Positions 859 to 62,399 of a stretch of DNA of 64,000 bases are shown here, piece after piece. The DNA is from Thiocapsa rosea (GTDB lineage Bacteria > Pseudomonadota > Gammaproteobacteria > Chromatiales > Chromatiaceae). Every line of letters begins with the position of its first letter. Position 1 is the first letter of the stretch. Under the pieces are notes generated by a model. That model ran no database searches, was not told the origin of the DNA, and saw only the letters and a list, made by a program, of their open reading frames with translations. A program made the translations under genes and the position numbers. The DNA is taken from assembly GCF_003634315.1 (NCBI RefSeq), contig NZ_RBXL01000001.1, forward strand, positions 1,534,501 to 1,598,500, written 5' to 3'.

Positions 859-944
859 TAAACCGCGTCTTCACCGAGGGCGTGGGCTCACGCAACCGCG
901 AGCCCCAGTCCTAAAACATCCTTTATCTCACCGGACGCGGTTTA
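859..944. repeat. Inverted-repeat mini-element, copy A (86 bp)
   Basis: The left end TAAACCGCGTC (859-869) is the exact inverse of the right end GACGCGGTTTA (934-944). The interior is about 64 bp and non-coding. The right end contains the hemE stop codon: bases 942-944 read on the minus strand give TAA. The sequence just inside the right end (ATCTCACCGGACGCGG) matches that of copy B at 4874. It belongs to a window-wide family listed copy by copy here. Confidence 0.9.
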
Positions 945-2006
945 GCGGTGGTAGGACCGACTGAGTTCGTGCACTGCCGCGACCATCGCCCCCGCGTGCT
1001 CAGGATTCACGTCCGGCGTGATCCCGTGTCCGAGATTAAAGACATGGCCCGGACCCTTACCGTAGCTGGCGAGCACGCGCGCGACCTCTTCGCGAATCCG
1101 CTCGGGTGAGGCGTAGAGCGCGCAGGGATCGAGATTGCCCTGAAGCGAGACGCGGTCACCGGTCAGGATGCGTGCGTCGGCCAGATCCGTCGTCCAGTCC
1201 ACACCGAGTCCGTCGCAGCCGGTATCGGCCATGTGGTTCAGCCACTGACCACCGTTCTTGGTGAAGAGGATCACCGGGACGGCGCGTCCTTCCGACTCGC
1301 GGTTCAGACCCTCGACCACGCGCTGCATGTAGGCCAGGGAGAACTCGCGGTAGTTGGCCGGCGCCAGTGCCCCGCCCCAAGTGTCGAAGATCATCGTCGC
1401 CTGCGCACCGCGAGCGATCTGAGCGTTCAGGTAGGCGACCACGGCATCCGCTGTCTTGGCCAGCAAGGCGTGGAGCAGATCCGGACGGTCGAACATCATC
1501 CCCTTCACATGCGAGAAGTTCTTCGCACCGCCGCCCTCGACCATGTAGGTCGCGAGCGTCCAAGGGCTGCCCGAGAAACCGATCAAGGGCACGCGTCCGG
1601 CGAGCTCGCGTCGAATCGTCGACACGGCATCCATCACGTAGCGCAGCTCGTCCTCCGGATCCGGCACGGCGATCCGATCCACATCGGCCTGCGTGCGCAC
1701 CGGCCGCTCGAAATGCGGTCCCTCGCCCTCGGCGAAATACAGACCCAGCCCCATCGCGTCCGGCACCGTCAGGATGTCTGAAAAGAGGATGGCGGCATCC
1801 AGCGGAAAACGCTCCAAGGGCTGCAGCGTGACCTCGCAGGCAAGCTCCGGGTTCTTGCACAGATCCATGAAGCTGCCGGCCTTCGCGCGCGTCGCACGGT
1901 ACTCGGGCAGATAACGGCCTGCTTGGCGCATCATCCAAACCGGCGTGTATTCAACGGGTTCGCGCATCACTGCACGGAGGAAGGTGTCATTGATGAGTGG
2001 CGTCAT
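942..2006 (-). CDS. hemE: Uroporphyrinogen decarboxylase HemE
   Basis: Decarboxylates the four acetate side chains of uroporphyrinogen III to give coproporphyrinogen III. It is a cytoplasmic enzyme of heme and bacteriochlorophyll synthesis. The ATG at 2006 gives 354 residues, the usual length. Signatures are [11 protein letters not shown] near the N terminus, the [13 protein letters not shown] block, [13 protein letters not shown] and the C-terminal [14 protein letters not shown]. The longer open frame upstream of the ATG has no family similarity. The TAA stop lies inside the right terminal repeat of copy A. The gene is divergent from uvrD across an AT-rich gap with DnaA boxes. Tetrapyrrole demand in a phototroph would make it a central gene. 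Identification is secure. Confidence 0.97.
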
Positions 2007-2228
2007 GAAGCAGGACCTGGGCAGTCGAGGAAGAAGAGTCTCGGTGGTTCGGGCGCCCATTCTACTACGGGTTTCGCTCGTGACGAGGTTGTGAAGGACC
2101 CGCGCGCTCAAGTTCAGCGCTCCGGTGCGAACGCCGGGTCGCGCGGCAGGCGAACACCGACCGCTCGTCGGGGGGCAGGGGCACATCGGCCGACTGTATA
2201 AGTCTGTTCACGGCAGGGTCTCGAACTC

Positions 2229-2237
2229 TGTGGATAA
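2229..2237 (-). promoter_or_regulatory. Perfect DnaA box 1
   Basis: TGTGGATAA reads TTATCCACA on the minus strand, an exact match to the strong DnaA box. It lies in the hemE-uvrD divergent gap, 131 bp from a second perfect box in opposite orientation. Confidence 0.65.
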
Positions 2238-61031: not shown

Positions 61032-61084
61032 TGGATGGGTCAACTCAACGGGCGGTTGCGTTTTGATGTACGAGGGCGGCAGTG

Positions 61085-61630
61085 ATGGTTGATCGGGTCG
61101 TGATTCTGGATCGTGACGGCGTCATCAACGAGGATTCGGAGCATTTCGTCAAATCCATCGACGAATGGATCCCTTTGGCGGGCAGCATTGATGCGATCGT
61201 GCGTCTCTCCCACGCAGGCTATCGGGTGGCCGTCGCGACAAATCAGTCCGGGTTGGCGCGCGGTCTGCTGACACCGGCGGACCTCGATGCCATGCACCGC
61301 AAGCTTCGGGATCTCCTGGCCGAGCAAGGAGGACGGATCGAGATGATCGTCTATTGTCCGCATGGACCCGATGCCGGCTGCGAATGCCGCAAACCGAAAC
61401 CCGGCATGCTCGAGGAGATCGGAAGGCGACTCTCGGTGAATCTTGCCGGCGTACCCTTTGTCGGCGACTCGCTCGGCGACATCGTTGCGGCGAGGGCTGC
61501 CGGGGCCGATCCCTGGATGGTTCGCACGGGAAAAGGGGAAGGCACACTGGCGAGCGGATCCCCTGACCTCGTCGGAGTTCCCGCCTATGCCGACCTCGCG
61601 TCCGTCGCCGACGCACTTCTCCATGGATAG
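61085..61630 (+). CDS. gmhB: D-glycero-beta-D-manno-heptose 1,7-bisphosphate 7-phosphatase GmhB
   Basis: 181-residue HAD phosphatase of LPS inner-core heptose synthesis. The nucleophile motif is ILDRDGVINED, motif 2 is ATNQSGLARG and motif 4 is FVGDSLGDIVAARAAG. The zinc-binding loop CPHGPDAGCECRKPKPGM is intact. The ATG at 61085 is preferred over the overlapping GTG at 61082. It is placed after glyQS as in Pseudomonas and relatives. It overlaps plsC by 8 bases. Confidence 0.94.
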   Translation: MVDRVVILDRDGVINEDSEHFVKSIDEWIPLAGSIDAIVRLSHAGYRVAVATNQSGLARGLLTPADLDAMHRKLRDLLAEQGGRIEMIVYCPHGPDAGCECRKPKPGMLEEIGRRLSVNLAGVPFVGDSLGDIVAARAAGADPWMVRTGKGEGTLASGSPDLVGVPAYADLASVADALLHG

Positions 61631-62399
61631 GCCGACATTCCGGGAGAGGCTGAATGCCGGTCTGATGCGCGGGGTGACCCTGACCCGTTCCCTGCTGTAT
61701 CAGGTCGTTCTGGTCGGCTCGGCCCTCGTCTATTCCACCCTTCTTCTCCTCGTCGGTCCGATGGCATCGGACGAACGTCTCGATCGTCTGGCGCAAAGCT
61801 GGGCAAAGCTCAATCTCGTGGCATTGAAATGGATCTGCGGCCTGCGCTGCCGCGTCAGTGGACTGGACAGATTGCCTGTCGAGAACGCGATCGTTTTGAG
61901 CAAACATCAGTCGGCATGGGACATCCTCGCGCTGAGGGCCGTGCTGCCGATTCGCCAGAGCTGGGTCTTGAAGCAGGAGTTGATGCGCATCCCGGTCTTC
62001 GGGGCCGGTTTGAGGCGCCTGCACTGCATTCCGATCGACCGGGCCGCGGGACGTCGAGCCATCGTGGAGCTGGTGCGCGAAGGTCTGCGGAACCTGCAGA
62101 GCGGGCGGTGGGTGATCGTCTTCCCGGAAGGTACGCGCACGGCACCGGGCTGTCGCCGCCCGTACGCTATCGGCGGGGCTGTCTTAGCCGAGCGCAGCGG
62201 TAAACCCGTCGTGCCGATCGCGCACAATGCGGGTTCCTTCTGGGGACGGCAGAGCATCAGCAAGACACCCGGGACGATCGACCTGGTCATCGGCCCGACC
62301 ATCCCGACGGCGGGGCGGAGCGCTGCCGAGATCAATGCGGCGGTCGAAGAATGGATTGAGTCGACGGTCGCTGCATTGCCTGGACCGGACGCGGTTTAG
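61623..62399 (+). CDS. plsC: 1-acyl-sn-glycerol-3-phosphate acyltransferase (PlsC-like)
   Basis: 258 residues from the ATG at 61623, overlapping the gmhB end by 8 bases. One or two N-terminal membrane helices (about residues 22-45) precede the acyltransferase domain. Motif I is KHQSAWD (Hx4D), motif [16 protein letters not shown], motif [13 protein letters not shown] and motif [12 protein letters not shown]. It makes phosphatidic acid at the inner membrane. The last codons (ending DAV) and the TAG stop come from repeat end L, so the C terminus appears to have been set by the element. Confidence 0.92.
62388..62398. repeat. Mini-element end, locus L, shared by plsC and gyrB stops
   Basis: GACGCGGTTTA, preceded by CCG as in copies A and B, is an exact right terminus with no left partner. 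It codes for the end of plsC (stop TAG 62397-62399). On the other strand it supplies the gyrB stop (TAA, 62396-62398). The two convergent genes therefore end inside the same 11-bp sequence. Confidence 0.75.

Follow-up and report, generated by a model that had tools for sequence, protein, structure and literature searches.

RUP of Streptococcus pneumoniae, which is linked to IS630-Spn1, is the closest known system: an intergenic miniature element (MITE) of ~100 bp with TA termini, for which mobilisation by an IS630 enzyme has been proposed from matching ends (PMC2229807). As the ISY100 work has it, the insertions of IS630 enzymes fall almost exclusively at TA and duplicate these 2 bp (PMC2170065). 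Correia/NEMIS of Neisseria is another TA-ended, high-copy MITE (PMC2229807). REPINs and the CGTC and GTAG REPs have an inverted dimer as their unit, with heterodimers in some families and singles that are remnants (PMC3116915, PMC3733652); inverted heterodimers recur among short bacterial palindromes and are unexplained (PMC3733652).

The window considered here is a 64,000-nucleotide stretch of Thiocapsa rosea DNA (C1:1534501-1598500 of the 6.11-Mb genome designated G000). It holds nine full copies of a short unit with paired ends, together with decayed and partial ones. The parts are as follows (genes were called with a simple hexamer-model gene finder; motif matches are scored out of 27):

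859..944, minus strand: unit of 86 bp whose motif end lies on the right and doubles as the stop codon of called gene 942-2006 (minus)
4800..4884, minus strand: decayed unit with an approximate boundary on the left; its motif end, on the right, is retained (24/27)
11713..11796, plus strand: unit of 84 bp; called gene 10420-11715 (plus) has the motif end, on the left, as its stop codon
12820..13011, no strand assigned: doublet of 192 bp in which a spacer (12904-12926) separates unit 12820-12903 from unit 12927-13011, both with the motif end facing out
20415..20503, plus strand: unit of 89 bp with C-type tips, no partner seen
35677..35761, minus strand: unit of 85 bp; called gene 35759-36208 (minus) has the unit's right end as its stop codon
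38448..38645, no strand assigned: doublet of 198 bp in which a 28-bp spacer separates unit 38448-38532 from unit 38561-38645; called gene 38643-40526 (minus) has the outer end on the right as its stop codon
51255..51285, plus strand: partial unit represented by a lone motif end (23/27); the coordinates are those of the scored motif only
56555..56638, minus strand: unit of 84 bp with partly mutated ends and the motif on the right
62368..62398, minus strand: possible lone motif end, weak (18/27), that overlaps called gene 62396-64000 (minus) at its end

A first-pass annotation of this DNA had listed eight full copies of near-constant length, and a check of coordinates and ends confirms all of them, at 84-89 bp; the ninth, at 35677, it had counted among halves and remnants. 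Of its other remnants, 4874 is the right end of the decayed copy, 51255 is one motif end, and 62388 is one end, weak because the reversed window also yields one match at ≥18/27. No unit and no motif match is found at 49889 or 50786 on scanning the window, and those two entries may be chance. The 11-bp termini described as shared are generally so, with one or two changes at 12820, 12927 and 20415; at 56555-56638 the right end actually reads GGTTGA and the left end has GCATC, and 38448 and 38561 have TG..CA ends. The window gives no match to Rfam 15 families at gathering score. Among orthologs, the unit at 859 is 85 bp long with identical 11-bp tips in G002, the decayed unit at 4800 keeps both tips in G005 and G008, and the unit at 35677 recurs in six genomes, with base pair 2 showing a paired change; the 51255 motif is absent from all six closely aligning Thiocapsa orthologs.

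The unit at 11713 is adjoined by a segment of ~211 bp (11797-12007) that has inverted ends of its own, GGTGATTTCCGGGAA / TTCCCGGAAATCGCC, and contains a GTTGTC tandem. This segment recurs in the same genome (at locus L183, 83% and 87%), is absent together with the unit in orthologs (net -209), and probably represents another mini-element family.

The units are far from confined to the window. The sequence AACCGCGTC occurs there 64 times with at most one mismatch against 29.4 expected, a count reached by none of 100 shuffles. Genome-wide, exact paired ends with 45-75 bases between them occur 228 times, against 0 for the reversed pattern, and allowing the commonest end changes raises the count to 584, again with a control of 0. 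Seven of ten same-genus relatives carry 48-168 exact copies and three carry none. In the family, 11 of 116 genomes have any exact copy: four of the genus (this one included), G028 with 41, G063 with 102, and five others with one each. In a scan of named genomes the hosts among the matches listed (80 loci) are mostly Thiocapsa, the others being Thiobaca trueperi, Thiocystis, Lamprocystis purpurea and a Chromatiaceae bin. The viral contigs searched contain no copies.

Among 179 distinct exact copies 89 are 84 bp and 57 are 85 bp long (range 82-95). The bases just outside the ends are Y in 97% and R in 98%, making the site YTAR, and no direct repeat beyond TA rises above shuffles. A relaxed set comprises 530 units (it includes coding false positives, such as window positions 14796-14877 inside the gene called at 14765-15370, and its reversed-sequence control gave 29 before duplicate removal); 451 of these, with TA/TG ends, were used for orientation and 391 for gene context. 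Both ends read TA in 385 of the 530; the TG..CA ends are not a duplication. The 451 units, when sequence alone is used to orient them, are polar: one end follows TAAACCGCGYCCRGNGCGRNATGCGNNGTTT, while the other has little in common past the 11-bp tip. Polarity, like the doublet and the stop-codon position taken up below, is absent from the first-pass annotation, which described the interiors simply as non-coding; there is some common sequence inside, the motif of one arm extending to about base 31. Many C-type units (for example 20415-20503) have, by eye, a long near-perfect hairpin in the non-motif half, approximately GCGCCGGCTCCGAC / GTCGGAGCCGGCGC. Identity with attC sites was considered and dropped, as the core bases do not fit.

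Comparison of occupied with empty sites bears on how the elements arrive. From 129 flanked units, 120 sites were comparable and 13 comparisons were near-empty, 12 with a net difference of +2 bp and one, at L172:18047, of +1. These 13 represent six sites, four orthologous (12820, 20415, 56555 and L172:18047) and two in locus L185 that are related via repeat sequence, their orthology not established. The +2 difference is seen at 12820..13011 in G002, G004, G005 and G009; at 20415 in G001, G002 and G005 (with +3 in G003 and 0 in G004, where the flanks have diverged); and at 56555, also with diverged flanks, in G001, G002, G003, G004, G008 and G009. The dinucleotide at the orthologous empty site is CA for 12820, GG or GA for 20415, and ambiguous for 56555; both L185 empty sites read TA, and in L185 one unit is inserted precisely into the TA that terminates another copy. 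The 2-bp length difference is supported, and the TA identity of the duplicated dinucleotide less so.

A transposase gene flanked by the same ends is found in related genomes, and it is of IS630 type. In the congener G007, which has no exact mini-elements, a DDE_3 gene lies between two motif ends (21/27 and 23/27) placed 1277 bp apart; its product matches Pfam DDE_3 and NCBIfam IS630 (155 bits against a cut-off of 100), and the N-terminal part of the gene is frameshifted. This transposase has relatives at 13 loci, spread over five of the 116 family genomes. Each of these loci has at least one motif end of ≥20/27, and both ends are present in L311, L312, L316, L319 and L313/L318; the best facing end pair scores 44-47/54, compared with at most 35 in 150 reversed loci. 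G135 carries three near-identical 1274-bp copies of the insertion sequence (IS) with a 405-aa open frame, and in five full-length copies the base outside both ends is C, giving CTAG. The left end of the IS matches T-type units at 27-31 of 35 bases. An assignment of C-type units to the right end was not supported, their match to that end being no better than to the left. An internally deleted copy of 398 bp in G135 (L322, 1371-1768) retains both ends and is a possible step towards a mini-element.

DDE_3 genes are present in 9 of 11 genus genomes. The window's own genome has no relative of the matching transposase at E 1e-30, and none of its seven DDE_3 loci is flanked by motif ends. Its resident IS630 was considered as the source and set aside: its own end pair, found at two of the seven loci, starts TATACCTC and differs. 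In the part of the genus-wide matches that was scanned for motif ends (33 DDE_3, 9 Y1_Tnp and 30 DDE_Tnp_1 loci), a facing pair of ≥20/27 round the gene occurs only at L261; L293 holds a nearby doublet. In 246 element loci (2.4 Mb) the frames of 9 of the 18 facing tip pairs listed show, by eye, no transposase that would mark an autonomous copy, and no gene family was found to recur between facing units. G004 has 60 DDE_Tnp_1 matches, many of them equal-scoring, which suggests a recent IS expansion there.

That the mini-elements are non-autonomous members of the IS630 family (MITEs) has, in our estimate, a probability of about 0.85. The tentative IS630/mariner assignment of the first-pass annotation, made from the TA ends, is strengthened by the 2-bp empty-site difference, the YTAR site and the IS630 element with the same ends. 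Counting against it are the lack of a relative of the matching transposase in the window's own genome, the zero exact mini-elements of G007, the non-TA dinucleotides at orthologous empty sites, the want of any direct repeat beyond TA, the TG..CA ends, the C-type units' failure to match the IS right end better than the left, and the fact that at 70-121 bp the 1.27-kb IS has no inner tips. The two outward motif ends of a doublet would be bound by an IS630 transposase working in trans, and the doublet would probably move by cut and paste into TA, duplicating it. Copies persist chiefly at or shortly past the ends of genes; when the target TA belongs to a TAA or TAG stop codon, the protein stays unchanged because the element end itself reads TAA. 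Singles would mostly be doublets with a decayed partner, or with one unit deleted between repeated tips. The match between tips would come mostly by descent of two unit types, with an additional DNA-level process at the second base pair.

Units are mostly arranged as doublets. Where they lie within 60 bp of each other they face, motif ends outward, in 128 of 131 pairs, and in 115 of these 128 the spacer is 19-24 bp, making a doublet of ~192 bp (23-bp spacers are AT-rich). A strict outer-tip doublet pattern has 161 matches in the window's own genome and none in the control, and the doublet at 12820-13011 recurs whole, at ~87% identity, at many genus sites among the matches listed. Its two units are typically unlike: 106 of 124 doublets join a GCGTC-tipped (T) with a GCGCC-tipped (C) unit, against 61 expected (p 5e-17), the rest being 16 T/T and 2 C/C. 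The T/C combination extends to Thiobaca (6/6), Lamprocystis (2/2) and the Chromatiaceae bin (2/2), and accounts for 1/2 in Thiocystis minor and 0/2 in an uncultured Thiocystis. Position 10 of the tips agrees within units in 116 and 118 of 124, versus 62 and 63 expected. Full tip pairing is found between a unit's own tips in 168 of 248 and between cross pairs in 14 of 248; inter-tip matching operates inside units, not between doublet partners. It is tempting to see in the doublet a four-tipped DNA replicator, each unit closing its own stem, the T/C difference at position 10 preventing cross-pairing, and movement or survival depending on two adjacent hairpins plus the outer IS630 ends, but this is speculation that we would sooner doubt than accept.

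Singles carry traces of a former partner. In 152 of them a partner tip lies on the non-motif side in 52 and on the other side in 8, and the non-motif side is AT-richer (61% vs 42%). At 12820 the first unit stands alone in G008 and one 86-bp unit is present in G001; at 38448 there is a single unit in G001 and G008, that of G001 bearing both outer tips of the doublet. These traces, together with the one-unit orthologs, suggest that singles are likely doublets whose partner has decayed or been deleted.

The first-pass annotation had also noted that when one terminus varies the other varies to match, and had taken this to show selection or mechanism acting on pairing. The matched changes are real, and mostly reflect two unit types with different tips. 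In the 530 relaxed units pair 10 is T-A in 354, C-G in 132 and T-G or C-A in 30, and its identity tracks the T and C types; pair 2 is A-T in 404, G-C in 65 and G-T or A-C in 23. Ortholog comparison of 788 paired cells gives 77 one-sided and 10 two-sided changes, where ~3 of the latter are expected if changes are independent at an even rate. All 10 fall at pair 2, at three loci, with pairing kept. Pair 2 also changes fast on one side only, and a shared mutable context can therefore explain part of the two-sided changes; hairpin-templated repair at this pair is a further process that we infer.

Of 390 units, 131 have an end that serves as stop codon to the gene next to them, in the window those at 859, 11713, 35677 and 38561, and 132 of 452 3' ends facing units lie on an element stop (TAA 109, TGA 23). 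In six genomes that lack the element at 11713 (G004, G005, G006, G007, G009 and G010) the same codon is TAA or TAG. A contiguous 184-kb stretch has 11 of 154 gene calls ending on an element's first triplet, which gives the elements a bearing on gene ends in this group. Occupancy of YTAR sites is 104/439 at stop codons, 45/158 at 1-30 bp and 17/267 at 31-100 bp after them, and 68/1095 elsewhere, in loci chosen for holding elements, so that these figures compare site classes and not genome rates. By these figures the stop has no advantage over the 30 bp that follow it. Convergent intergenic DNA has 21 units in 20.3 kb, divergent 14 in 48.2 kb. Only one of 391 units (600-bp flanks) lies inside a gene call, in keeping with the earlier statement that no recognised gene is interrupted.

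The stop-codon ends, the occupancies and the convergent excess are also what would be expected if the host kept the elements for a role at 3' ends, the stop-codon hairpin acting in mRNA as terminator, exonuclease barrier or RNase site and being maintained by selection. We regard this as improbable. Selection at the RNA level is not seen: sense-strand G.U is in no excess over A.C (33 vs 30 in 286 units; 9 vs 15 in stop-associated units), and interiors fold no better than their shuffles (Z -0.16 and -0.12; 150 of the 530 units sampled). Nor are the tips strongly conserved between orthologs, at 0.91 compared with 0.88 for flanks and 0.87 for interiors. The polarity with which units face stops (117:15) stems from doublets and from those singles whose tail is AT-rich (48:3); where the tail of a single has AT <0.5 the ratio is 4:11, which speaks against the motif end being preferred at stops and against polar insertion at stop codons. 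Under the IS630 reading, target choice plus selection can explain the stop-codon position.

That the elements are REPIN-like, with a RAYT (Y1) transposase moving them in the form of single-stranded hairpins, is very improbable. Inverted doublets far in excess and remnant-like singles are indeed as described for REPINs (PMC3116915). However, at none of the nine Y1_Tnp loci of G000 is the gene flanked by units on either side together (one exact-core unit lies 1.3 kb from a Y1 gene match at L247, and one 3-mismatch match in or beside L249), the units are 84 bp with paired tips rather than 20-40 bp with an unpaired tag (as in PMC3733652), and their ends match an IS630 element. Chance or assembly artefact, for which no supporting point was found, can be dismissed on the zero control matches and the copies in independently assembled genomes.

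The open-access literature searched (titles only for 10-mer matches) yielded no description of the unit sequence, in agreement with the first-pass annotation, and an IS630-type MITE family with a doublet of unlike units is apparently undescribed. The present elements add to the bacterial mini-elements an IS630-linked family with a candidate enzyme, and they tie inverted heterodimers to a DDE transposase, so that a requirement for two unlike units becomes testable. IS630/Tc1/mariner elements of the ISY100 type insert at TA with duplication of 2 bp (PMC2170065), as the Thiocapsa elements probably do, and the transposase of the Chromatiaceae IS is of the same family; the differences are that the mini-elements have no transposase and the Chromatiaceae IS has no inner tips. 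REPs are 20-40 bp long with an unpaired tag, and the GTAG types go with RAYTs (in the accounts of PMC3116915 and PMC3733652), in contrast to the Thiocapsa elements, for which no RAYT link is seen at the nine Y1_Tnp loci of their genome. Correia/NEMIS elements have a 24-bp terminal inverted repeat (TIR) and units of 107/155 bp, and are set apart by that description (PMC2229807). RUP is a 107-bp unit with a 9-bp TIR in 108 copies, with no doublet mentioned in the parts of that source that describe it (PMC2229807); the Thiocapsa elements, unlike RUP, combine polar units, a heterodimeric doublet of ~192 bp, a 31-base end motif and positions on stop codons.
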